Source of the DNA: Candidatus Polarisedimenticola svalbardensis
Lineage (GTDB): Bacteria > Acidobacteriota > Polarisedimenticolia > Polarisedimenticolales > Polarisedimenticolaceae
Direction of reading: 5' to 3'
DNA: 44,575 bases
NCBI GenBank assembly: GCA_014764515.1
Contig: JACXWD010000023.1
Location: 1 to 44,575 of the forward strand
Of this stretch, positions 20,062 through 32,820 are shown in pieces; position 1 is the first letter of the stretch, and each line of letters begins with the position of its first letter. The notes under the pieces were generated by a model. That model did not search any database. It was not told the DNA's origin and saw only the letters and a list, made by a program, of their open reading frames with translations. The translations under genes were made by a program, and so were the position numbers.

Positions 20062-20289
20062 GGCTCACAGGATATACGCCACCCGCCGATTTTGCGGCGC
20101 AGGCCGCCACTATTCTCGCGGATACGCGCCTTTTACAAGCGGCCAGCTATCAATCGGCGGCCGCAGATTATCGCCTAAACATGTGAAAACAAATCAGATG
20201 TCCGTAGCGGTCCTTTTTGTGGGGAAGGCTGGCATCCCCCGTGCAATACATCGGGTTGCAAATAACCGAACTCTGACACCGGAGCGATC
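20062..20289. other. Intergenic stretch upstream of the LKR-like gene
   Basis: About 228 bp without a supported gene, AT-richer than its surroundings. It should hold the promoter of the LKR-like gene (minus) and of the orphan sensor remnant (plus). GGAG lies just before the ATG of the latter at 20290. No convincing promoter hexamers or known RNA motif were recognised. Confidence 0.4.
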
Positions 20290-20925
20290 ATGAGATGAAA
20301 TAATAATATCTGGAGCCCGGCCTGGATCCTGCTTCTGGCAGCATCCGTTCTGGTCTGTTGTGCAGTTGGAATCGACACGACCCTGGGGATGCGCCCGGTG
20401 CGGATACGCTCCCTGAAGATCCAGGTGGCCGCTCTCGACCTGTTCATCCTCTCCGCCCTGATCATGCTGGACCCGCTGGCGGCGCCTCTGGTCGCCCTGG
20501 TCGGCGTAATCGGAGCGGTGTTCGGGCCCGGGAGACGGCCGTTCTCCATCCGGGCCGCGTTCAACCTGGGAGTGGTACCGCTGTCCGCTTCCCTTGCAGC
20601 TCTGACTTATGTCCGGCTGATCGGTGACCCGATCAGTCAGACTGCCGGTTACGCGATACCCCTGGTAGCCGCCACCGCCGTGTACTTTCTGGTCAACACG
20701 GTCCTGGCAGCCCTTGCCGTATCGATGGAAACGAAAAAGAATCTGTTCTCTATCTGGCTCGGGTTCGGTCCCTGGAACGGCGTATCGACCCTGGCGAGCA
20801 TGGTCATGGCCATCGGCATGGTCGTCCTGGTGGACGCCTTCGGTCCGTTCGTCCTGCTCATCGGGCTGATCATCTCCATCCCGATCCTGGCCCAGGGGAG
20901 ATTGCGGGAAGCCCGGGAGCAATAA
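20290..20925 (+). pseudogene. Orphan membrane sensor-domain gene with UGA at codon 3
   Basis: The frame reads ATG AGA TGA, then runs open for about 209 codons to TAA at 20925; GGAG lies just upstream of the ATG. The only later canonical start is ATG at 20389, which gives 178 residues, lacks a good ribosome-binding site and loses the first TM helix (PAWILLLAASVLVCCAV). The product is a multi-TM protein clearly related to the N-terminus of the hybrid kinase at 27502: PVRIRSLKIQVAALDLFIL against [19 protein letters not shown], and AATAVYFLVNTVLAALAV against [17 protein letters not shown]. It stops where the kinase continues into its coiled coil. I read it as a decayed kinase fragment; expression from 20389 is possible. 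Confidence 0.6.
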
Positions 20926-20928
20926 ACT

Positions 20929-21282
20929 CAGGCCGCCCCCTTCCGTGCCGATCCACAACAGTCCGTTCCTGTCCACATGGAGGGCCCAGACGAAATTGTT
21001 GGAAATCGAACCAGGGTCCCGGTCGTCGTGATGGAAGGTCTTGAATTCATAGCCGTCGTACCGGTTCAGGCCGTCCTGGGTCCCGAACCACAAAAATCCC
21101 TGGTTGTCCTGAACGATGCAGTTCACCGAGGACTGGGACAAGCCGTCTTCCAGGGTCAGCCTGTTGAACCGGGCGTTTTCCATAAACGGCGTCTTGGCCG
21201 TCGCCGGCGCCACAACCAGCATCATGAGCAGGCAAAGAAGGGAGGTGCGGTTCGCCGCGCTTTTCAGGAAACGGTTATTCAT
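20929..21282 (-). pseudogene. Truncated two-component propeller (Reg_prop) sensor gene
   Basis: The ATG at 21282 has GGAGGCGACAGAC upstream and overlaps the stop of the sigma-54 activator by 8 bp. A signal peptide (LLCLLMMLVVAPATA) is followed by FNRLTLEDGLSQSSVNCIVQ, WFGTQDGLNRYDGYEFKTF and WALHVDRNGLLWIGTEGGGL, i.e. two beta-propeller blades of the kind that form the periplasmic domain of very large Reg_prop/Y_Y_Y sensor kinases. Homology ends near 20929, where the frame runs into the antisense strand of the neighbouring membrane-domain gene. The frame stays open to 20194 but encodes non-homologous, low-complexity sequence. The remaining propeller, TM segment and kinase are missing. Confidence 0.72.
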
Positions 21283-24178
21283 GTCTGTCGCCTCCGGCCG
21301 GGACCAGGCCGTTCGACCATTTTTTGAAGGTTGTTTCGGTGACGCCCATGAAGGCGGCTCCGGTGCGGTTGTCGCCGGGGATCTTGCCGGACAGTTCATC
21401 CAGGATGCAGAGCCTGGCCAGATCCAGAACGTCCTCCTGGCCCGGGTTGCCCGTCTCCAGCAGCGATATGATCCTGTCCCGGACCTCTTCCCAGGCCGGC
21501 GGCCTGATGGCAAGTCCTGCGGCCATGTTCCCGCTGGCCGCTCTCAGCTTGCGCCTGAACGTGGTTTCGGGGATGCCGAGAAGGACGGCGCCCTGGGCTG
21601 TTACTTCCCGGCTTGCCCGGGCCGCTTCCAGGACCAGGTCTTCATGGACCCATTTCCCAACCGGTGGCGGATGGGGGGAGTTGCCGGCGACAATCCTGTC
21701 GATCTCACTGGACAGGGACCGGCGCAGGGCGGCCCAGGCATCATCGGGTTGCATTGTCTCCTTAGCAGGAGTTGCCGCTCGGACCTCAGTCGGCCTGTGC
21801 GGCTCATCTGCCGGGGATGCGCCGGAGAGTTCCAGTTCCCCGGCGGTGATCTTGTCCGATTCGGCCAGCACCACGGCGCGCATAATGCGATTCTGCAGTT
21901 CCCTGACGTTGCCGGGCCAGGAATGCTTCAACAGCGCCTCCCGCCCGTCCGGCGTCAGGCCGGTAACATGACGGTCGTAGCGCATGGAGAACGTCCTGAT
22001 GAAGTGGATCGCCAGGTAATCGATGTCTTCGACCCGGTCCCGCAGGGCGGGAACGACCAGGCGCATGACGTTCAGGCGATGGAACAGGTCTTCCCGAAAC
22101 CGGCCGTCCCTGGATTCCACAGCAAGGTTCCGGTTGGTGAGGGCGATGACCCTGACATCAACGGTCTTGACTTGGTTGCTGCCTACCGGCGTGAACTGTT
22201 TTTCCTGAACGAACCGCAGCAGTTTGCTCTGGACTTCCAGTGGAAGCTCGCCGATCTCGTCCAGGAGGACTGTGCCGCCGTCGGCTTCCAGGAGCCTGCC
22301 TTCGGACCTGCGGTCGGCGCCTGTGAAAGCCCCCCGTTCGTGTCCGAACAGCTCGCTGTCGATGAGCGATGTGGTGATGGCGCTGCAGTCCACAATTACC
22401 AGCGGTTTCTTGCTGCGTTTGCTCAACTGGTGGATGGTCCTGGCCAGGACCTCCTTGCCGGTGCCGCTTTCGCCGTTGATCAGCACGGTGGTGTCGGTAG
22501 CGGCCAGTCGTTTGGCGGTGCGAAGAAGTTGCTCCATCGCTTCGGAGCGGAAGATCAGGCTGGAGCGCTTGATGCTCTTCTGGAGTTCGTCCAGCTCATG
22601 CTGCAGTTGGTAGCACGCCTTCTCGTGCTGGCGCATCTCGATAGCCGTGAGACGGTTGCGGTCCAGGGCCATGGCGATCTGCTCCGCCAGAGCTTCGAAA
22701 AACAGCAGGTCCCCGGAGTTCAGGCTGAACAGGCGCACATTGCCCTCGAGATACAGGCAACCGAGTGTGCGCTCACCACTGCAAAGCGGGATCACGCACC
22801 GGAACAGGTCGATTTTCTCGTCGGTTTCCGCCACGGTCTTGCCGCGGGCCATGACCCTTTGCCGGATGGCCTTCAGGCCGGTGTCCTCGGTACTGTCCTG
22901 CCGCCATTCACCGTCATCGTCATGCTCTTCCCGGCGCAGTATTTTCCAGACCGCCCCGGCAGGTCCCTCGTCATAAACTCCTGCCGCCGTAAGGCTGAAG
23001 ACCGAGACCACTTCCTGGAGCAGGCTGTCCATCATGGTTTCAACGTCGGCGCTGGCGGCGATGAGGCGGACGGTGTCCCACAACAGCCGCATGTTGCGGT
23101 AATCCTTGGAAGGATCGGCGGTGAAAATGCCGCTGAGGCTGTCCAACCGGTTCGCTTCCTCGGTGCCGACGTCTTCGGTCCAGAGTGTGAAGCGCTGGCC
23201 CCCGGCTCTTTTCGCACAGCTCAGGGCGGCGTCGGCCCTGCGGGCCAGTTCCATGGCGCCGCCGTCGTTGTCTGTGGAGCTTGCCGGCTGGTCTACCGCC
23301 CCGCCCAGGCTGAAGGTCAGGCTGATGGAGCCGTCGCGATACGGATCCGCCGAAAGTTCACCTCGGATCTTGTCTGCGAAACAGCTGATTTTTCTTCCGG
23401 TGGTCTCCGGTATCAGGACGCCGAACATGGCGGCGCCGTAGCGGAACACGAAGTCGGTGCCTCGGACCGCTTCGCTCACCCGCCGGGCGATCTCCCGTAT
23501 GACCTGGTCGCCGATCTCCCGGTTGAAGCGGTCGTTGACCGTGTTGAAATCGTCCGGGTTGATCAGGAGCAGTCCGGGGCGGCGATCCTGTGCGGCATTC
23601 GCTGCAAAGCGGCGGTATGTGATCGGGAAGGAGGATCTGGACGGCAGCTGGCTGATCGGGTCCATCTCCGCCGTGCAGACCATCTGTGTCCGGCAGCCGA
23701 TCAGGCTGCCGATCGCCAGGTACAGCGAATGCATGGCTCCGTCCCCGGCTGATTTCAGGAGATCGGCAGGGTTCACCGCCTGCCCTCCTCGAATCCCCAG
23801 CCATGCCGGAGTTCTGGGATCGACCAGGGTTCCAGGGCAGGCGGTTCCGTTGGCGCTGCGGCGATCCTCCATGGCGGCGTCCCGGGGCTGACCGTTGACC
23901 AGGGTCACCAGTGACGGCACGAAGGTCAACTGTCCATTCTTGTCGCTGCTGGGGATCGGAGCGGTCTGGGCGTCGTCGGGGGAGAGTGAAGCGAGGAAAG
24001 CCTGCGCCTGTTCAACGTCGGCAAGCTCCGGCACCGCCGGTTCGCTGTCACTGTGAACCAGCAGGGGATAGTCCCCTTCCGCCGTCGGAAGAAGGATGAA
24101 CAGCGATACCGCTTCTGCCTCGCAACCGGTCCGGATCAGATGAAGGATCGCCTGCAGCAGTTGATGAATGGTGGCCAT
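21275..24178 (-). CDS. Sigma-54-dependent activator with degenerate GGDEF, GAF-like region and two HTH motifs (967 aa)
   Basis: Domains in order: an N-terminal helical/sensor region; a GGDEF-fold domain near 150-290 whose signature is GAAMF at 248-252, so cyclase activity is not expected; a GAF-like region near 320-500; and an AAA+ sigma-54 interaction domain with Walker A GESGTGKE from 569, GAFTGA at 616-621, and WPGNVRELQNR. The C-terminus carries two related Fis/HTH-8-like motifs (GAVLLGIPETTFRRKLRAA and GAAFMGVTETTFKKWSNGL) instead of one. The intact GAFTGA loop means it can activate sigma-54 RNA polymerase. The ATG at 24178 follows GGGGAGAGAC. It is divergent from the repeat protease, whose upstream region has a -24/-12-like promoter, so it is the likely activator. 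Confidence 0.92.
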   Translation of the reverse strand: MATIHQLLQAILHLIRTGCEAEAVSLFILLPTAEGDYPLLVHSDSEPAVPELADVEQAQAFLASLSPDDAQTAPIPSSDKNGQLTFVPSLVTLVNGQPRDAAMEDRRSANGTACPGTLVDPRTPAWLGIRGGQAVNPADLLKSAGDGAMHSLYLAIGSLIGCRTQMVCTAEMDPISQLPSRSSFPITYRRFAANAAQDRRPGLLLINPDDFNTVNDRFNREIGDQVIREIARRVSEAVRGTDFVFRYGAAMFGVLIPETTGRKISCFADKIRGELSADPYRDGSISLTFSLGGAVDQPASSTDNDGGAMELARRADAALSCAKRAGGQRFTLWTEDVGTEEANRLDSLSGIFTADPSKDYRNMRLLWDTVRLIAASADVETMMDSLLQEVVSVFSLTAAGVYDEGPAGAVWKILRREEHDDDGEWRQDSTEDTGLKAIRQRVMARGKTVAETDEKIDLFRCVIPLCSGERTLGCLYLEGNVRLFSLNSGDLLFFEALAEQIAMALDRNRLTAIEMRQHEKACYQLQHELDELQKSIKRSSLIFRSEAMEQLLRTAKRLAATDTTVLINGESGTGKEVLARTIHQLSKRSKKPLVIVDCSAITTSLIDSELFGHERGAFTGADRRSEGRLLEADGGTVLLDEIGELPLEVQSKLLRFVQEKQFTPVGSNQVKTVDVRVIALTNRNLAVESRDGRFREDLFHRLNVMRLVVPALRDRVEDIDYLAIHFIRTFSMRYDRHVTGLTPDGREALLKHSWPGNVRELQNRIMRAVVLAESDKITAGELELSGASPADEPHRPTEVRAATPAKETMQPDDAWAALRRSLSSEIDRIVAGNSPHPPPVGKWVHEDLVLEAARASREVTAQGAVLLGIPETTFRRKLRAASGNMAAGLAIRPPAWEEVRDRIISLLETGNPGQEDVLDLARLCILDELSGKIPGDNRTGAAFMGVTETTFKKWSNGLVPAGGDRHE

Positions 24179-24282
24179 GTCTCTCCCCGGTGCTGCCCTG
24201 ATTTCAGCGCGCACTTAGCTACGGGGACCGAATATAGGTTTGAGAAACCCGTCGGCAACACCGTCGGCTCTACACCGAAAAA

Positions 24283-24312
24283 GTGGCTTTAATCCGCCAC
24301 ATTTCTAGTGGC
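24283..24312. promoter_or_regulatory. Candidate upstream activator site (GTGGC/GCCAC repeats)
   Basis: GTGGC-N8-GCCAC-N7-GTGGC gives two overlapping inverted repeats about 130-160 bp upstream of the predicted protease transcription start, the usual distance for a sigma-54 activator site. Further GTGGC copies occur at 24395 and 24417. It could also be chance in GC-rich DNA. Confidence 0.3.
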
Positions 24313-24344
24313 CGCCATTATTGGCGAGCAGTCAGACCACCGGA

Positions 24345-24406
24345 TTTTCCTCCGGCCGCGTAGCTAACTCCTTGCCGTTGAACGACTAGGAACGGTGGCC
24401 GGAAAA
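24345..24406 (+). other. Structured intergenic element before the sigma-54-like promoter
   Basis: TTTT-CC-T-CCGGCC (24345-24357) can pair with GGCCGGAAAA (24397-24406), leaving a 3-nt bulge; inside, CCGTT (24375-24379) pairs with AACGG (24391-24395). It lies upstream of the predicted transcription start, so it would act as DNA (binding site or end of another transcript) rather than as a leader RNA. No known riboswitch family was matched. Confidence 0.3.
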
Positions 24407-24417
24407 CGCCGCCGCGG

Positions 24418-24433
24418 TGGCACAGGCCGTGCA
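24418..24433 (+). promoter_or_regulatory. Putative sigma-54 (-24/-12) promoter of the repeat protease
   Basis: TGGCACAGGCCGTGCA matches the consensus TGGCAC-N5-TTGCA with one mismatch and has the diagnostic GG-N10-GC spacing. Transcription would start near 24444, leaving a leader of about 33 nt with AAGGAGG before the ATG at 24477. A sigma-54 activator is encoded divergently next door, which strengthens the call. Confidence 0.65.
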
Positions 24434-24476
24434 CACAAGGGGGTTGTACAGAACGCAAAAAACCAAGGAGGCCGAC

Positions 24477-26216
24477 ATGGCCACGCGCTTGAATTTTAAA
24501 AAGTTGATGCATCGGACGGTCCTCGGGATCGCCATCCTGCTGTTGGTCCTGCCGGCTGCCGCCGCACCGGGTAACCACGGCAAGATCAGCGATGTCGCCC
24601 GTGAGCAGGCTGCTGCTCCAGGCGCCGACAAGATCGACGTCATCGTCACGTTCAAGGAGCGTCCCGGCCGCGCCCAGCGCGACCTGGTCCGCAATAACGG
24701 CGCCAGGATCGGGAAAGAGTTCAAGGCGATCAAAGGTATGAGCCTGAGCATCCCGGCCAAGGCACTGGAAGCATTGGCCAGAAACCCTCAAATCGAATAC
24801 ATCACAATAGATGCCCCGATCATGGGCAACATGAACGTGGCCCGGAGCGTGGTCCGGACCGCCGTGACATCCCCCAACTCAAGTTCCCGTGTCGGCAGCG
24901 GGGTCACCGTAGCGGTACTGGATTCCGGTTTTTCCAACCACTACGATCTTTACAAAGATTACCCGAATGAGGTCATCGCCCATGTGGACATGACCGGTGG
25001 GAACGACTCCAACGACTATTACGGTCACGGCACCCATATCGCCGGCATCATTGCAGGACGTGGGTTTACCACCTCCAGTATCGTCGGCGTGGCTCCAGGA
25101 GCGGCTATCGCTTCCGTCAAGGTTTTGGATTCGAACGGCGCCGGCAGCGCCTCAACGGTCATCGCCGGCATCGACTGGGTTATCGAACACAAGGATACCT
25201 ACGGGATCCGGGTCGCCAACCTCTCTCTCGGTCACAAAATTTACGAGTCCGCCTCGGTAGACCCGCTGGTGCAGGCTGTTGAAGCACTGTGGAACGCAGG
25301 TGTCGTCGTCGTGGTCTCCGCCGGTAACGAAGGAGCCGAAGGTTACGGAACCATCACCAGCCCGGGCAACTCGCCCCGGGTCATCACCGTAGGCGCTCTT
25401 ACGGACTGGAACACAGTGGATACGTCGGACGATACGGTGGCGACCTATTCAAGCAAGGGCCCGACCCCGATCGATCATATCGCCAAGCCGGACATGCTGG
25501 CTCCCGGCAACCGGATCATCTCCCTGGCGGTTGAAGGCTCCACCCTGGAAACTGCGAAGCCCGAGTCCAAGATTGGTGACGGCGTCTGGGACGACTACTA
25601 CTTTGAAATGTCCGGCACCAGCATGGCTGCGGGATTCGTTTCGTCCGCTGCTGCGGCGATGTTGTATGTCAATCCGAGCCTGAACCCGGACACGGTGAAG
25701 GCGCGGTTGATGAAGTCGGCGCGGAAAGTCGACGTCGGCGACCCGTTCTCCACCGGAGCCGGTGTGTTGAGGGTCTACGAGGCGATTTTCGAAACGGGAG
25801 AAACGACCTACGCCCCGTCTCCCGCCGTGTTCCGTGATGAAACCACCGGCATGCTCGGCGTTGAGAACCTGGCGGTTCTGTGGAGCGATGCGGTGTTGTG
25901 GAGCGACGCGGTTCTGTGGAGCGACGCGGTTCTGTGGAGCGACGCGGTTCTGTGGAGCGATGCGGTGTTGTGGAGCGATGCGGTTCTGTGGAGTGACGCG
26001 GTTCTGTGGAGCGACGCTGTGCTGTGGAGCGACGCGGTTCTGTGGAGTGACGTGGTGCTGTGGAGTGACGCGGTGCTGTGGAGCGACGCTGTGTTGTGGG
26101 CCGATTCGGTCGGGAGCACCAACGCGGAAGCCAGTGCCGAAGCGGTCATGAACACCAACGATGGAATTGACGAGCCGGATCCGGACCTTGGCACGACTAC
26201 GGAAGTGTCCCGGTAA
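24477..26216 (+). CDS. Secreted S8 (subtilisin-like) serine protease with a C-terminal AVLWSD repeat tract (579 aa)
   Basis: A signal peptide (TVLGIAILLLVLPAAAA) is followed by an inhibitor-I9-like propeptide (DKIDVIVTFKERPG ... NPQIEYITID). The catalytic domain has Asp149 (VAVLDSGF), His184 (YGHGTHIAGI), the oxyanion-hole Asn in VSAGNEG, and Ser382 (MSGTSMAAG), so it should be active. After residue 465 come 13 tandem hexapeptides, mostly AVLWSD, and then a polar, acidic tail of about 35 residues. The start follows AAGGAGG; a -24/-12-like promoter lies 44 bp upstream. No sortase, PEP-CTERM or autotransporter anchor is seen. Export through the inner membrane is expected; the substrate and the role of the repeats are unknown. 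Two kinase genes follow. Confidence 0.93.
   Translation: MATRLNFKKLMHRTVLGIAILLLVLPAAAAPGNHGKISDVAREQAAAPGADKIDVIVTFKERPGRAQRDLVRNNGARIGKEFKAIKGMSLSIPAKALEALARNPQIEYITIDAPIMGNMNVARSVVRTAVTSPNSSSRVGSGVTVAVLDSGFSNHYDLYKDYPNEVIAHVDMTGGNDSNDYYGHGTHIAGIIAGRGFTTSSIVGVAPGAAIASVKVLDSNGAGSASTVIAGIDWVIEHKDTYGIRVANLSLGHKIYESASVDPLVQAVEALWNAGVVVVVSAGNEGAEGYGTITSPGNSPRVITVGALTDWNTVDTSDDTVATYSSKGPTPIDHIAKPDMLAPGNRIISLAVEGSTLETAKPESKIGDGVWDDYYFEMSGTSMAAGFVSSAAAAMLYVNPSLNPDTVKARLMKSARKVDVGDPFSTGAGVLRVYEAIFETGETTYAPSPAVFRDETTGMLGVENLAVLWSDAVLWSDAVLWSDAVLWSDAVLWSDAVLWSDAVLWSDAVLWSDAVLWSDAVLWSDVVLWSDAVLWSDAVLWADSVGSTNAEASAEAVMNTNDGIDEPDPDLGTTTEVSR
25872..26105 (+). repeat. Thirteen tandem 18-bp coding repeats (AVLWSD)
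   Basis: Thirteen in-frame units with consensus GCGGTTCTGTGGAGCGAC encode AVLWSD; unit 11 reads VVLWSD and unit 13 AVLWAD. Variation is almost only at third positions (GTT/GTG, CTG/TTG, AGC/AGT, GAC/GAT), which points to purifying selection on the peptide together with recent unit duplication. The tract has no spacers and is not a CRISPR array. Confidence 0.97.
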
Positions 26217-26233
26217 CCCGAGGAGCAAGGATA

Positions 26234-27406
26234 ATGAACAGCGTACAGATCCTGATTGTGGACGACGACCATCGCGGCCGTAAGCTGTTGGCCAGCTACC
26301 TCAAGCCCCGAGGCTATGACGTGCTGATGGCCAGTAGCGGCGAAGAAGCCCTGGAAATCGCCGCGGAGTCGATGCCGGCAGTCATGCTTCTGGACGTTAT
26401 GATGCCCGGAATGACCGGACTGGAAGTCTGTCGCATCATCAAGGAGAACCCGGACACACGGTTGACCCAGATCATGATGGTGACCGCCCTCGGTGGCGAG
26501 GACGACCTGGTGGAAGGCCTGGATACAGGCGCCGATGATTACATCGCGAAACCTGTGCCCAAGGCCGAGTTCCTGGCGAAAGTCCGGGCACTTGTCCGGG
26601 CCCGCACCCTGATGGCGGATCTGAGCCAGGCCCGTGAAGAGCTGGAAAATCGCAACCGGGAACTGGAACTGAAAAAGACACTGGCCCAGACCCTGGTCCA
26701 CGATCTCAAAAGTCCCCTGACGACAGTCGTCGGTAACCTGGACCTCATGAGGAGAAAAGAAGGGTTCCAGGAGCATATCGCGCTCAGGCGCGCCTGGAAC
26801 GGCGCCAGTCGGATGAGCCAGATGATCATGGATCTCCTGGACGTGGAATGCCTGGAAGACGGAGGCCTGACCCCGGTCCTCAAGGAGAATGACATCAAAA
26901 CGATGTTGCTGGAGGCGGTGGAAGCGAATCAGGCCATGAGCGATCAGCAGGGTGTGCGCCTTCGCGCCGACCTGTGTGACGACCACTGCAGTGTTGAAGC
27001 GGACAAAGCCCTGATGAGGCGTGTCCTGGATAACCTGATCTCCAATGCCCTGGCCTACTCCACGGACGGCATGGAAGTCTCGGTTGCGGTGGCGCAATGC
27101 CCCGAGGGTATCAAGCTGACGGTGACCGACCAGGGTCCCGGTGTTCCCGCCGAGCAGCGGCAAGCGATATTCGAGAAATATTCCCGCTTGGACCAGTCCG
27201 GAGTGGCGGTTCGCAAGAACCGCGGACTCGGTCTTACGTTCTGTCAGATGGCGGTGGAAGCCCACGGCGGTACGATCTGGGTCGAGGACGCTCCAACGGG
27301 TGGGGCGATTTTCCAGATTCTTCTCCCCGAGCTGGAGGCTCCGGAGTTGATGTCGGCCGAAGAGGACAATTTCGTCCTGTTCCCGCGCAGTGTTGCCGTA
27401 GCTTAG
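26234..27406 (+). CDS. Receiver-histidine kinase (response regulator fused to HisKA/HATPase, 390 aa)
   Basis: An N-terminal receiver (ILIVDDDHRGRKLL, phosphoacceptor Asp54 in LLDVMMPGMTG, Lys in YIAKPV) is joined by a short coiled coil to a kinase core with His156 (LVHDLKSPLT), an N box (LDNLISNALAYS), and G boxes VTDQGPGVP and RGLGLTFCQMAVEAHGGTIW. There are no TM segments, so it is cytoplasmic and probably receives phosphate from another kinase, with its receiver gating its own activity. It starts 17 bp after the protease stop with GAGGAGCAAGGATA upstream, so it is likely co-transcribed with the protease. Confidence 0.93.
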   Translation: MNSVQILIVDDDHRGRKLLASYLKPRGYDVLMASSGEEALEIAAESMPAVMLLDVMMPGMTGLEVCRIIKENPDTRLTQIMMVTALGGEDDLVEGLDTGADDYIAKPVPKAEFLAKVRALVRARTLMADLSQAREELENRNRELELKKTLAQTLVHDLKSPLTTVVGNLDLMRRKEGFQEHIALRRAWNGASRMSQMIMDLLDVECLEDGGLTPVLKENDIKTMLLEAVEANQAMSDQQGVRLRADLCDDHCSVEADKALMRRVLDNLISNALAYSTDGMEVSVAVAQCPEGIKLTVTDQGPGVPAEQRQAIFEKYSRLDQSGVAVRKNRGLGLTFCQMAVEAHGGTIWVEDAPTGGAIFQILLPELEAPELMSAEEDNFVLFPRSVAVA

Positions 27407-27501
27407 GGGCGGGCTCCCGGCCGGCTTGCCAGCCTGGTCGTCTGAACCTAGGTTAAGCCTTGCAGGCAGAACAGGTTGGTACGATCAAGGGTGGTGGGCG
27501 C

Positions 27502-29535
27502 ATGGGCAGTTCCAGTCCAGGGAAAAAAATCCGGCTGAGGGTATTTATCCTCGGGATTTTTTTACTCGCGCTGGCCGTGTCCGTTTTCCTCCCCAGGCCG
27601 GACATCGGCCAGGATCCGTACGCTCTCCTGCTGATCCTGGTTCTGGCCCTGGTGGCCGGCGCCCGGCCGATCAGGATACCTGCCATCCGCACCGAGGTGT
27701 CCGCCTCGGATCCGTTCGTCTTCACGGCCGTGGCCTACGTCGGAGGACTGCCGGCAGTCGCCGCCAGCATGCTGGCGGTACTGGGCGCCGCCGTGGTTCG
27801 TCAACCGAAGCCGAAGGCCGACAAGCTGCTGTTCAACCTGGCCACCCTTATGCTCTCGACCGCATGCGCCTCCGCAGCGTTCCACGCATTGGGCGGCACC
27901 GTCGGAGGGAAGAGCCTGGGCCAGATCGGGCCGCTGATCCTTGCCGCCACAGCCTACTTCTTTGTGAATACGCTTCTGGTCGCCATGGTCATCCGAATCG
28001 ATACGGGGAATCCGTTTCTTTCAACCTGGTTCAGGTCCGGTCTGTGGACCGGTCTGTCGACCTACACCGGTCTGACCCTGGCGGTCTGCCTCCTGATGTT
28101 GCTGAACGTCATGGGGCCGATCGGTCTGGCCCTGGGGATCCCTCCCTGCTGGCTGTTGATCACGTTCTACCGGACACACAAGAACCAGCTGGAATTCCAG
28201 CAGGAAAAGATCGTCCAGGTCGAGCACGACAACCTGGAACTGGAGAAAAAGGTATTGGAGCGGACCCGGGCGCTCCAGGATGCGTTGAACCGCCTGGGTG
28301 ACGTCAATAAGAACCTGAAGGGCACTAACCTGCGTCTGGAGAAAGCCAGCCAGGCCAAGAGCGAGTTCCTGGCAAACATGTCCCACGAGCTCAGGACACC
28401 TCTGAACGCCATCATCGGTTTTTCCGATCTGATGAGGGATGGCGAAACAGGCCCGGTGAACGAGGAGCAGTGCGATTTTCTGAACGACATCAACGGGTCG
28501 GGCGTTCATCTCCTGCGGATGATCAACGACATCCTGGACCTGTCCAAGATCGAGGCCGGCAAGCTCGAGCTGCACCGCACCGAGTTCGAACTGGACGGCG
28601 AACTCCGTGCAGCAGTTTCCATGGTCAGGATCCAGGCGGAGAAGAAGGATCTGGCCCTGCACATCGAGTACTCCTCCGACGGTATGATCGCAAAGCTCGA
28701 TCCCGGCATGATCCGGCAGGTATTGCTGAACCTGTTGACTAATGCGGTCAAGTTCACCCAACCCGGCGGAAAGATCATCCTGTCCGCTTCTCCCAGAGGA
28801 CGGGACCTGGTAGTTCGAGTTTCCGATAACGGCATCGGTATCCCTGCCGAGGATCTTCCGAACATCTTCCAGGAGTTCTACCAGGTCGACGGCACCTACA
28901 CCCGCAAGCATCAGGGAACCGGGTTGGGGCTCGCCCTGGTCCGAAGGATGATTGAGCTCCATGGCGGCACCGTCGACGTGGAATCCCAGCCGGATCAAGG
29001 TTCGACCTTCACCATGGTTTTCCCGGACTGTGTCCGGATCCAGGCGGCCAGCGCCAGGGCGGAACAGGCCGTCCAGGCAGCCGTCGAACCGACGTTCGCC
29101 GGCGCCACAGTTCTGGTGGTGGAAGACAACCCCGTCAACATGAAGCTGGCTCGAAACGTATTGAAAGCCAGGAAGTTCGAAGTCCTTGAGGCTACATCAG
29201 GTGAGGCTGCCGTGGGAATGCTCCGGACGGTTCATCCGGACATTATCCTGATGGATATCGAGCTCTCCGGCGCCAGCGGCCTGGAGATCACGAAAAGGAT
29301 CAAGGCCCACCCGCGCACCGCCGATATCCTGGTCGTGGCGTTGACCGCCTATGCTACGGAAGGTGACCGCCAGAACGCGATGGACGCCGGTTGCGACGGC
29401 TACATCACCAAGCCGATCCGGCTCAACCGGCTGGCCGCCAGTCTGGCCCTGCTTCTGAATCGCTCTGCCGATACGATTCCGGTCATCGACCCTGCCGTCG
29501 TCCAGGAGAGCGAAGAGCATCGACCCGGGAGGTAA
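27502..29535 (+). CDS. Multi-TM hybrid sensor histidine kinase with C-terminal receiver (677 aa)
   Basis: The first ~230 residues form about seven to eight TM helices (such as [17 protein letters not shown] and [16 protein letters not shown]) with no large periplasmic domain. A coiled coil ([20 protein letters not shown]) leads to HisKA with His295 ([19 protein letters not shown]) and a HATPase ([41 protein letters not shown]). The C-terminal receiver has Asp585 (LMDIELSG). The ATG at 27502 is preferred over an upstream TTG because AAGGGTGG lies before it. The membrane domain is paralogous to the orphan fragment at 20290. Together with the preceding receiver-kinase it can form a phosphorelay; the signal is unknown. 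Confidence 0.92.
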
Positions 29536-29553
29536 ACCGGGCTAGCATGCAGC

Positions 29554-30315
29554 ATGCTGGTTGCCGTTACACGGAAAGTTTCCCCCGCCATCGCCCGATG
29601 CGAGCTGACCCACCTGAAACCCTCGGGCATCGACCCGGTCCTGGCGGCGTCTCAACACGAGACCTACTGCCGGGCGCTTGCGGAAGCCGGGTGCCGAATC
29701 GTCTCGCTACCTGCCGATCCGGATCTGCCTGACTCGGTCTTCGTGGAGGACGGCGCGGTGGTGCTGGATGAGATCGCCGTGCTGACCCGTCCGGGAGCGC
29801 CGTCGCGGCGTCCCGAGATCCCGGCACTCCGGGCCGAACTGGAGCGCTACCGGCCGGTGGTCGAGATCAACGCCCCCGGCACCCTGGACGGCGGCGATGT
29901 GCTGCAGGTCGGCCGGAGGCTGTGGGTCGGACGGTCCGGCCGCAGCAATGCGGGAGGTATCCGGCAACTGGGAGAGTTCCTGGAGCCGTTCGGATACACG
30001 GTGGCCCCGGTCAGTATTCGGGGTTGCCTGCACCTCAAGACCGCCGTCACCCGGGTTGGTCCGGATACCGTGCTATTGAACCCGGACATGGTGGACCCGG
30101 TCTGCTTCGACGGCCTGAACATCCTGGAGGTTGACCGCTCCGAGCCGATGGCGGCCAACGCCCTCCTGGTAGGAGAGACGGTGATCTATCCCGAGGCGTT
30201 TCCTGCTACCCGCAGGAAGATGGAACAGGCAGACATCCAGGTCCGAACCGTGCCGGCAGGCGAACTGGCCAAGGCGGAAGGCGGCGTGACCTGCTGCAGT
30301 ATCGTCCTGCGCTAG
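29554..30315 (+). CDS. Dimethylarginine dimethylaminohydrolase (DDAH)-like amidinohydrolase (253 aa)
   Basis: A pentein-fold enzyme: PDSVFVEDGAVVLDE (acidic substrate-binding loop), GTLDGGDVLQVGRRLWVGRS, His160 in GCLHLKTAVT, and a C-terminal GGVTCCSIVLR whose first Cys (247) is the expected nucleophile. Family members hydrolyse N-omega-methylated arginines to citrulline and methylamines; some act on related guanidines. The ATG at 29554 lies 18 bp after the hybrid kinase stop; the nearest GGGAGG is rather far upstream. Its TAG stop is shared head-on with the convergent nhaC stop in the palindrome CTAG. A link to the kinase genes is not evident. Confidence 0.87.
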   Translation: MLVAVTRKVSPAIARCELTHLKPSGIDPVLAASQHETYCRALAEAGCRIVSLPADPDLPDSVFVEDGAVVLDEIAVLTRPGAPSRRPEIPALRAELERYRPVVEINAPGTLDGGDVLQVGRRLWVGRSGRSNAGGIRQLGEFLEPFGYTVAPVSIRGCLHLKTAVTRVGPDTVLLNPDMVDPVCFDGLNILEVDRSEPMAANALLVGETVIYPEAFPATRRKMEQADIQVRTVPAGELAKAEGGVTCCSIVLR

Positions 30316-31934
30316 CCTTCCACCGGCTTCCCGACGAAGCGCACGACAGCTCCCAGTACTGCAACTCCCAACAGTAGTCCGGCCCAGACCGGCAGTCCGG
30401 CGGCCACCGGGAGGTAACCGGTAATCAGCGCGGCCAGGGCCACCGTCAGGGCATACGGCAGCTGGGTCCGGACATGGTCGACATGATCGCATCCCGAGGA
30501 CATGGACGACATCACCGTGGTGTCGGAGATCGGGCTGCAGTGGTCCCCGAAAATCGCGCCGGCCAGAACCGCCGAAGTGGTGGCCAGGAAAATCTGGTGG
30601 GCGGCGGCCTCACCGAAGCCGGCGGCGGCGGTGACACCGAAGGCGATCGGCACCGCCAGGGGGAGCAGGATCCCCATGGTGGCCCAGGAGGTTCCGGTGC
30701 TGAACGCGATCAGGGCGCCGCACAGGAACATGAGGCTGGGCAACAGGTTCGGGTTGAGCTTGTCGGACAGGAGCGAGGTCACGAACCCTGCGGTGTTCAG
30801 ATCCTTGCAGACCGAGGCGATGGCCCAGGCCAGGACCAGGATGATCATCGCCGGCAGCATGCTCTTGATCCCGTTGAGCCAGGCGTCCAGGGACTCCTGC
30901 AGCTTCAGCACTCCCTGGCCTGTGACCATGGCGATGGCCACCACCGACCCCAGGGCGGCGGCCCACAGCAGTGCGTGGAACGAGTTCCCTTCACTGAATA
31001 CGGTCCCGATGCCCTGCATTCCCAGTTTGAAGAACGGGGTGTCGGCCAGGGCATGTCCTGCCTCCGCCATGGCCGCCCTCCCGGTGAACCACTGTGCGAT
31101 GAAAGTGGCGTGGATCACGATGGCAAGGGGGATGACGGCGTTGGTCCAGCGGTGGGGCTTGCCTTCCACCGGCAGCAGGCCGTGAGAATCGAAATCGGAT
31201 AGCGGCTGAGCTCCCTTGCGGAGCAGCTCGCCTTTCCGTGCTCTCCGCTCCGCTTTCAGCATCGGGCCGAAATCCCGGCGGCTGCCGGCGATCATCAGCC
31301 CGAACGCCAGGGCCAGAAGCGGGTAGAAGTTGTAAGGGATCGACTGCAGGAAGACGGCGTAAGGGTCCAGGTCGGAACCGGACTTGGCCAGGGCGTCGCC
31401 GATCAGTGAGATCTCGTACCCGATCCAGGTGGAAAGCAGGGCGATAGCCGCCACCGGGGCCGCTGTGGAATCGACGATGTACGCCAGCTTTTCCCGGGAG
31501 ATCTTCAGCTTGTCGGTGATGGGGCGCATGGTATTGCCGACCACCAGTGTGTTGGCGTAGTCGTCGAAGAACACAGCCACCCCGAGAACCCAGGTTACAA
31601 GCTGCCCCCGGCCGGAAGTGGTCGCCTTGCGGGACAGGGCGTTGACCAGGCCGGTGGTGCCGCCGGAACGGGACATGACACCGACCATGCCTCCCAGCAT
31701 CAGGGAGAACAGGATGATGGACACATGGTCGGAATCGGCCAGGGCGCCGACGATGTACTTGTCGAAAGTCCTGAGGGCGCCGATCAAAAGTCCGTGGATG
31801 CCTCCGCCGGAGACGATCCATGCTCCAAGCCACACGCCGCCCAGGAGGGCCAGGTAGACCTGCCGCAGCGCCAGCGCCAGCAGGATGGCCAGGAGAGGCG
31901 GCGCCAGTGAGAGCCAGCCGAACCCTCCCTCCAT
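30312..31934 (-). CDS. nhaC: NhaC-family Na+/H+ (or amino-acid/H+) antiporter (540 aa)
   Basis: About 12 TM helices in the NhaC/IT-superfamily pattern: LMLGGMVGVMSRSGGTTGLV, VAVFFDDYANTLVVGNTMRP (intramembrane acidic pair), GTSWATMGILLPLAVPIAFG, and a late IFGDHCSPISDTTVMSSMSS motif. This last motif is typical of NhaC/MleN-type carriers, which exchange Na+ for H+ and sometimes a carboxylate. The start ATG lies one base after the TGA of ctaB (TGATATG), so it is translationally coupled to a heme biosynthesis gene. The ion specificity is inferred from the family. Confidence 0.86.
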   Translation of the reverse strand: MEGGFGWLSLAPPLLAILLALALRQVYLALLGGVWLGAWIVSGGGIHGLLIGALRTFDKYIVGALADSDHVSIILFSLMLGGMVGVMSRSGGTTGLVNALSRKATTSGRGQLVTWVLGVAVFFDDYANTLVVGNTMRPITDKLKISREKLAYIVDSTAAPVAAIALLSTWIGYEISLIGDALAKSGSDLDPYAVFLQSIPYNFYPLLALAFGLMIAGSRRDFGPMLKAERRARKGELLRKGAQPLSDFDSHGLLPVEGKPHRWTNAVIPLAIVIHATFIAQWFTGRAAMAEAGHALADTPFFKLGMQGIGTVFSEGNSFHALLWAAALGSVVAIAMVTGQGVLKLQESLDAWLNGIKSMLPAMIILVLAWAIASVCKDLNTAGFVTSLLSDKLNPNLLPSLMFLCGALIAFSTGTSWATMGILLPLAVPIAFGVTAAAGFGEAAAHQIFLATTSAVLAGAIFGDHCSPISDTTVMSSMSSGCDHVDHVRTQLPYALTVALAALITGYLPVAAGLPVWAGLLLGVAVLGAVVRFVGKPVEG

Positions 31935-31935
31935 A

Positions 31936-32820
31936 TCAGATTTTATCCAGGATCAGGGCGGTGACCACGGCGATCAGGTGGAGGATGGAGATGGCGAACA
32001 CCTTGCGGCCTGCCTTGGCGGTAGGAGCTTTCGATCCCGTCCATGCGCCATGGACGAAAACCGCTCCGGCAAGTGTGGCCACCACCAGGTAAACCGGACC
32101 GGCGATCCCCAGGGCGGCCGCCGCCAGGCTCACGACCAGCAGTGCCGCCGAGGTCCAGATCATCTGCCGCCAGGCCGCTTTGCTTCCGTGAGCCACCGGC
32201 AGAACCTGGAGCCCGCCCCTGCGGTAGTCTTCCTCGAGGTAGACCGAGATGGCGATGAAGTGGGGGATCTGCCAGATGAACAGCAGGGCGAACAGGAACC
32301 AGCCTGGAGTGTCGAGGCTGCCGGTTGCGAAGGTCCAGCCCATGAGCGGCGGGATCGCTCCCGGCACGGCGCCGACATACAGGGCGGCAGGGCTGACCCG
32401 TTTCAACGGCGTGTAAACCAGGACGTAGGTCAGGAGCGCAATCGATCCCAGCGCAGCGGTCAAGGTGTTGGAGGTCAGCTGCAGCAGCACCAGGGCGAGC
32501 AGGCCGAGTACCGAACCCCAGACGAGGGCGACCCCGGGTGCGAGGCGGCCTGCCGGGAGCGGACGGTCCATGGTGCGGTGCATCAGGCCGTCGGATTTGC
32601 GCTCGACCCAGCAGTTCAGGGTGTTGGCCGAGGCGACCAGCAGGGATGTGGCGAACAGGAAACTAAGGGTGGTGGTCCATGTCGCCCCGTTGGGAGGGGC
32701 GAGCCAGATCCCGGTAGCAGTGGTGAAGATGACAAGGGTGGTGACCCGGGGTTTCCCCAGGTTGACGATGTCCCTTGCGAATCCGATCGCTCCAGGTGAT
32801 GTGGCGGCAGCCTGTGCCAT
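31936..32820 (-). CDS. ctaB: Protoheme IX farnesyltransferase (heme O synthase, 294 aa)
   Basis: UbiA-superfamily prenyltransferase that farnesylates heme B to heme O for heme-copper oxidases. It has the CtaB/CyoE form of the first motif (ANTLNCWVERKSDGLMHRTM, then DRPLP) and IPHFIAISVYLEEDYRRGG as the second. About eight TM helices span the protein. Its presence implies a heme O or heme A oxidase elsewhere in the genome; no oxidase subunit is in the window, so it is detached from the usual cta cluster. It is followed by nhaC after one base. Confidence 0.94.
   Translation of the reverse strand: MAQAAATSPGAIGFARDIVNLGKPRVTTLVIFTTATGIWLAPPNGATWTTTLSFLFATSLLVASANTLNCWVERKSDGLMHRTMDRPLPAGRLAPGVALVWGSVLGLLALVLLQLTSNTLTAALGSIALLTYVLVYTPLKRVSPAALYVGAVPGAIPPLMGWTFATGSLDTPGWFLFALLFIWQIPHFIAISVYLEEDYRRGGLQVLPVAHGSKAAWRQMIWTSAALLVVSLAAAALGIAGPVYLVVATLAGAVFVHGAWTGSKAPTAKAGRKVFAISILHLIAVVTALILDKI

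Follow-up and report, generated by a model that had tools for sequence, protein, structure and literature searches.

The window analysed here, the whole stretch of 44,575 nucleotides at positions 1 to 44,575 of contig JACXWD010000023.1 (assembly GCA_014764515.1) from Candidatus Polarisedimenticola svalbardensis, contains the gene of a secreted protease that ends in a run of near-identical, tryptophan-containing hexapeptides. The question raised by this locus is what such a tail does for the protease that carries it.

The gene (24477-26216, forward strand) encodes a 579-residue S8 subtilase, as judged from its translation, a PF00082 match and the aligned catalytic triad. The Pfam match covers the full length of the catalytic domain (residues 140-429; 24894-25763, forward strand) with an E value of 1.9e-52 and 178.8 bits versus a gathering score of 21.8, and the triad residues Asp149, His184 and Ser382 as well as the oxyanion residue Asn284 were invariant or nearly so in the alignments of relatives. 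Both the domain and the triad mark the enzyme as an ordinary member of S8. Its catalytic domain is shared with the mycosins of the T7SS; a mycosin identity was nevertheless rejected, with TIGR03921 scoring 143.5 bits versus an equivalog cut-off of 278.75, and none of the other named S8 equivalogs reached its cut-off for this protein. Export, already part of the original prediction, is supported by a putative Sec-type signal peptide read by eye at about residues 1-29 (24477-24563, forward strand), with a Lys/Arg N-terminus, a hydrophobic core and an Ala-rich end, and with residues 7-23 modeled by AlphaFold2 as a helix. A propeptide-like N-terminal domain (about residues 36-118; 24582-24830, forward strand) was modeled confidently, with pLDDT above 90 for most of residues 40-110, and its best Foldseek match was ProN-Tk-SP (3afg).

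The tail itself occupies residues 466-543, at the C-terminal end of the protein, and is followed by a short acidic and Ser-rich end (26106-26213, forward strand) of low AlphaFold2 confidence. Tandem Repeats Finder (TRF), translation and unit comparison agreed on 13 units of 18 bp at 25872-26105 (forward strand) encoding 13 hexapeptides of the form [A/V]VLW[S/A]D, with TRF reporting a single gapless array at 25872-26099 (period 18, 12.7 copies, 0% indels). This is the gapless array with mostly synonymous differences that had been predicted, and the claim that Trp is present in each unit was also borne out (13 of 13). The hexapeptide named in the prediction, AVLWSD, is exact for 11 of the 13 units only, since ten AVLWSD units are followed by VVLWSD (unit 11), another AVLWSD and a final AVLWAD (unit 13).

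Among units 1-12, six of the 18 DNA columns vary and five of these six are synonymous, namely the third bases of the Ala, Val, Ser and Asp codons and the TTG/CTG alternation of Leu; the sole non-synonymous change is the Ala to Val exchange in unit 11. Nei-Gojobori estimates over pairs of units within the tract gave a pS of 0.47 and a pN of 0.012 (ratio 0.025) for 12 units, and 0.53 and 0.033 (ratio 0.06) for all 13. Such a high pS between units shows that they are not fresh slippage copies, and the units are diverged copies whose peptide is held constant.

Relatives were collected with a DNA pattern that requires four Trp hexads in a row, the reversed pattern serving as control. The pattern matched 53 of 396 genomes of the phylum versus practically none for the control, and at least 117 stretches in public genome contigs, where a whole-protein search, unlike the DNA pattern search, gave no matches. 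Among the matches listed from public genome-contig and viral loci, 63 of 110 pattern-matched ORFs contained an S8 domain; those without it were mostly truncated at the end of a contig or locus or were wrong-frame low-complexity sequence, an exception being a Desulfosarcina protein without S8. The existence of subtilases with Trp-hexad tails in sequence databases is certain. The tail strings had no relevant mention in openly searchable papers, and the clade-wide constraint and sensor linkage described below appear to be undescribed so far.

The hexad period is strict. Across 140 distinct S8 tails, Trp-Trp spacings of exactly six residues occurred 1277 times, and out of 228 spacings of 7-26 residues 122 were 12, 18 or 24, where about 38 (one sixth) would be expected. 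The consensus of these tails is small-x-[L/V/I]-W-[S/G/A/T]-[D/N], although it is not universal, as tails of the GYTWSN and GTSWNE types have a polar third position. The 100 Trp-less units found in register kept mostly L/V/I at position 3, G/S/A at position 5 and D/N at position 6, with mostly S/A/D/Q/E in place of Trp. Since the replacements of Trp are mostly polar or small and the aliphatic position 3 is retained, Trp is probably exposed and position 3 probably buried.

Purifying selection on the peptide, as originally predicted, extends from the window to its relatives: pN/pS between units was below 1 in 112 of 115 related tracts, with a median of 0.20. Per-position pN over the 115 tracts was 0.15-0.20 apart from Asp/Asn (0.067) and Trp, whose value of 0 holds by construction because units were chosen by their Trp; Asp/Asn is thus the most constrained scored position after Trp. 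Tails range from 4 to 32 units, and 21 of 140 end right at a hexad. Many tailed subtilases, mainly gammaproteobacterial, close with a short conserved motif of the INxWVxQE type (for example L117, L129, L132, L135, L140 and L288), which may be a capping strand or serve as a second signal for recognition.

The window subtilase has a true, syntenic ortholog in a sister genome (G001), with 80% protein identity and with 78.7% nucleotide identity between the sister contig and positions 20930-32163 of the window. In the ortholog an irregular first stretch is followed by 10-11 regular units, as compared to 13 in the window, indicating that tract length varies while the peptide stays, in line with the variability that the original prediction had allowed for. 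Of the 13 S8 genes in the genome of the window itself, two bear a tract. The second one (L059, G000:C73) has about 29 hexads of the TALWAD type, broken in the available sequence by a stretch of N, and adjoins an SNF2 helicase gene. Two adjacent tailed subtilases were seen in Alteromonas salexigens, where one with a 13-fold GTSWNE repeat (L106:2181-3908) lies beside an ANLWSD-tailed one and a Reg_prop-GGDEF gene.

In a tree of 136 S8 domains built with a quick method, 116 of 118 tailed subtilases fell into one group of 120 rows with 96% SH-aLRT support, the two rows labelled tailed outside it being L286 and L291. Those tail-less control subtilases from ten related genomes that were included in the tree fell outside the group, except for L288, whose degenerate Trp-rich tail ends in INVWVEQE. 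The group spans Acidobacteriota, Pseudomonadota, Chloroflexota, Actinomycetota, Armatimonadota, Abditibacteriota and one Bacillota MAG. By this tree, the Trp-hexad tail marks essentially one well-supported subtilase clade, albeit with tail retention inside the clade being overestimated because tailed loci were collected by their tail pattern. The window subtilase belongs to it, with its catalytic domain inside the supported group and a tract of at least four hexads, and it also has adjacent sensor genes. A related group (L018, L020, L023, L028 and L030) has widely spaced IWGG/VWGG repeats in place of the hexads, and MASE9-like genes are still found downstream.

These data bear on one rival explanation of the tract, a slippage repeat without function. 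Unit numbers that differ among orthologs and paralogs would be expected of such a repeat, but a pN/pS below 1 in nearly all tracts, a single clade across several phyla and a register kept through Trp-less units are not, and we consider this explanation very improbable.

What structure the constrained peptide adopts was addressed with two AlphaFold2 runs, neither of which gave a confident fold for the tract. When the whole protein was modeled from 30 sequences (the window and 29 relatives), the core was largely above pLDDT 90 and the tract below 50 from residue 472, and the tract alone, with an alignment in register, gave a pLDDT of about 40 and no secondary structure. For the tract, the structure prediction of the C-terminal part proposed at the outset has yielded pLDDT values below 50 almost throughout. 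A solenoid or Trp ladder is compatible with the strict register of six residues and with what the Trp-less units retain, but draws no support from these values. The alternative proposal of a polymerising or membrane-inserting stalk found no support. As a pattern match only, the consensus of the 140 tails, small-x-[LVI]-W-[SGA]-[DN], has the hexad period, [LIV] occupying i and a small residue i+4, and a solenoid, left-handed beta-helix-like by this pattern, is a hypothesis that is unproven. No Pfam, NCBIfam or PDB entry matched the tract above cut-off; weak matches to the left-handed beta-helix Pfam families Hexapep and bactofilin were discounted, as the best of them (E 0.013-0.031) did not reach the cut-offs and reversed and permuted controls matched other families with E values of similar size.

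Strong peptide constraint in the absence of a known binding domain, together with the position at the protein end and a diderm host (Acidobacteriota are diderm), might suggest that the repeat aids folding, resistance to self-digestion or crossing of the outer membrane and has no binding partner. Such a role does not predict a linkage with sensor genes, however, and subtilases outside the clade manage without a tail in the same genomes, and we therefore regard it as improbable.

The sensor genes next to the window subtilase lie on the same strand. The stop codon of the subtilase is separated by 17 bp from the start of a gene for a response regulator-HisKA-HATPase protein (26234-27406, forward strand; PF00072, PF00512, PF02518), and next comes the gene for a MASE9 membrane sensor histidine kinase-response regulator hybrid (27460-29535, forward strand; PF20972, PF00512, PF02518, PF00072). 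On the other side of the subtilase is a divergent gene for a GGDEF-GAF-sigma54-activator protein (21275-24214, reverse strand), assigned by Pfam and position. Still further upstream are a MASE9-only ORF with a damaged 5' part (20347-20931, forward strand), recognised by synteny and the MASE9 profile, and the N-terminal stub of a Reg_prop sensor gene (about 20930-21283, reverse strand), recognised from the translation of 20194-21513 on that strand, a synteny break and a match of a local PROP profile. The sister genome has at this place a second module consisting of a tailed S8 gene, an overlapping MASE9-only gene and a convergent full Reg_prop-GGDEF gene, from which the window keeps only the damaged ORF and the stub, the tailed subtilase being absent. 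By synteny, 20347-21283 is a decayed second subtilase-MASE9-Reg_prop module. In the sister module (L052:2292-4762) the tailed subtilase and the MASE9-only gene meet at the stop codon, which suggests translational coupling of the two.

The arrangement in the window recurs elsewhere. In ten genomes, a MASE9 gene was found downstream on the same strand and within 4.5 kb for 12 of 38 tailed S8 genes versus none of 114 other S8 genes (p 1.3e-8; this and the following p values are optimistic because paralogs are not independent), and an S8 gene lay no more than 4.5 kb from 14 of the 21 MASE9 genes in the same genomes, the expectation being about 4%. The link was tightest for short MASE9 ORFs: in 30 genomes, 16 of 19 MASE9 ORFs below 400 residues and devoid of output domains lay directly downstream of an S8 gene, with gaps of -9 to 349 nt, as compared to 10 of 39 longer MASE9 ORFs downstream of a subtilase (p 4e-5). 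With local profiles for kinases, receivers, GGDEF, EAL, Reg_prop and MASE9, a signalling gene was detected within 4.5 kb of 23 of 39 tailed and 7 of 40 control subtilases (p 1.9e-4), and within 300 bp of 15 of 39 and 3 of 40, respectively. Among the matches listed from public contigs, 39 of 83 tailed loci had a signalling gene nearby despite cut flanks. The tailed subtilases are thus statistically tied to sensor and c-di-GMP genes, a tie that, like the subtilase clade, was no part of the original prediction.

The partners vary. MASE9-kinase, MASE9-GGDEF, MASE9-only and RR-kinase genes were found at other tailed subtilases, and Reg_prop-Y_Y_Y-GGDEF, Reg_prop-kinase and RR-GGDEF-EAL proteins in Gammaproteobacteria, so that the theme recurs there while the sensor domain is an unrelated one. 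A MASE9 gene is missing from the neighbourhood of over half of the tailed subtilases, among them all nine that were scored in one genome (G004), and MASE9 can therefore not be a universal partner. It may also be that the sensor linkage belongs to the catalytic clade rather than to the tail, the two being inseparable here. In openly searchable papers, MASE9 was absent and nothing relevant was found on S8 together with Reg_prop.

Tailed subtilases that have no sensor nearby at all, taken together with a conserved and apparently exposed Trp and a tail at the extreme C-terminus that in 21 of 140 cases stops right at a hexad, would fit a role in surface or substrate binding, with rows of exposed Trp tethering the protease to an insoluble polymer, the cell wall, the matrix or its substrate. 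We find this possible but rather unlikely, as on its own it leaves the MASE9-only genes directly downstream (16 of 19) unexplained and as no binding family matched the tract. The nearby sensors would then merely regulate a nutrient-acquisition protease, in the way polysaccharide sensors adjoin the enzymes they control, and to this we assign the same limited likelihood.

Near-identical peptides with synonymous drift, paralogs with hexamers of their own and adjacent multi-TM sensor kinases are what a signal-peptide precursor would look like, in which the subtilase or another protease cuts the tail into hexapeptides sensed by MASE9 or Reg_prop, as from a multi-copy pheromone precursor. However, sensor-linked tracts are heterogeneous, with for example L011 and L054 mixing different hexads (pN/pS 0.33-0.37), and the idea of an exact hexapeptide pheromone was downgraded for this reason. 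The register is moreover kept even in degenerate units, tails also occur at sensor-less loci, and, unlike fast-diversifying pheromones, the tails have a Trp-Asp core that does not change between phyla, making such a precursor quite improbable.

We tentatively favour, at somewhat below even chances, the reading that the tract is a conserved, non-catalytic module at the C-terminus of a clade of secreted subtilases which act together with signalling in the envelope. The hexads would make up a regular rod, probably resembling a beta-solenoid, in which the aliphatic position points inward and the Trp rows are exposed, and this rod would dock the exported protease onto a partner in the envelope. That the tail docks the protease to such a partner, or is read by it, is likewise plausible from the sequences without being probable. 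In Acidobacteriota the simplest partner would be the MASE9 membrane protein encoded next to the protease, in Gammaproteobacteria a Reg_prop propeller sensor, and a fused or neighbouring kinase or diguanylate cyclase would in this way be informed of the protease or of its action; in the window, the order would be from the subtilase to the MASE9 kinase (27460-29535) and on to the response regulator/kinase (26234-27406). The specific claim that MASE9, alone or fused to a kinase or GGDEF domain, or the Reg_prop propeller in Gammaproteobacteria, is the receptor for the Trp-hexad tail is doubtful, and we would sooner bet against it.

Were the receptor reading true, a secreted protease would serve its own membrane sensor as ligand, and a protease-receptor signalling module recognisable by an xxLW[SGA][DN] tail would exist across several phyla. 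Should the tail act as a docking rod or a ligand, a large unstudied set of secreted proteases of Acidobacteriota and Gammaproteobacteria would belong to signalling systems instead of being plain nutrient enzymes. The S8-MASE9 linkage gives the Trp-hexad tail and MASE9 each a candidate partner.

Among known proteins, the nearest solved structure is ProN-Tk-SP from Thermococcus kodakarensis, which has the propeptide and the catalytic domain with an intact triad in common with the window subtilase. Tk-SP carries a C-terminal beta-jelly roll, in place of which the Trp-hexad tract is found here, a tract that has no solved or profiled relative. With the hexapeptide repeats of left-handed beta-helices (Hexapep, PF00132; bactofilin, PF04519) the tails share the period of six and the pattern [LIV]-x-[GSA]-[DN]-[small]-x. 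A six-residue period like that of the tail is also found in phage WGDA-repeat proteins (PHROG 7964 and 5070), of which PHROG 7964 matches the tail with an E value of 1e-6; the phage repeats have Y, C and S alternating with Trp, the residue that dominates in the subtilase tails. Viral matches of the hexad DNA pattern were mostly wrong-frame or low-complexity, and the few that look real are phage WGDA-repeat proteins, with L190, L207 and L209-L211, proteins of unknown function, built of xVWGDA/xVWGNA hexads resembling the subtilase tails (L209 matching PHROG 7964 and 5070). For the gene arrangement, the closest likeness is to the HTCS of Bacteroides, Reg_prop hybrid sensors encoded beside the enzymes they control. 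A propeller sensor beside a secreted hydrolase is likewise found at gammaproteobacterial tailed subtilases, but here the hydrolase is a Trp-hexad-tailed protease, GGDEF/EAL predominate among the outputs, and in Acidobacteriota the sensor is often MASE9 instead.
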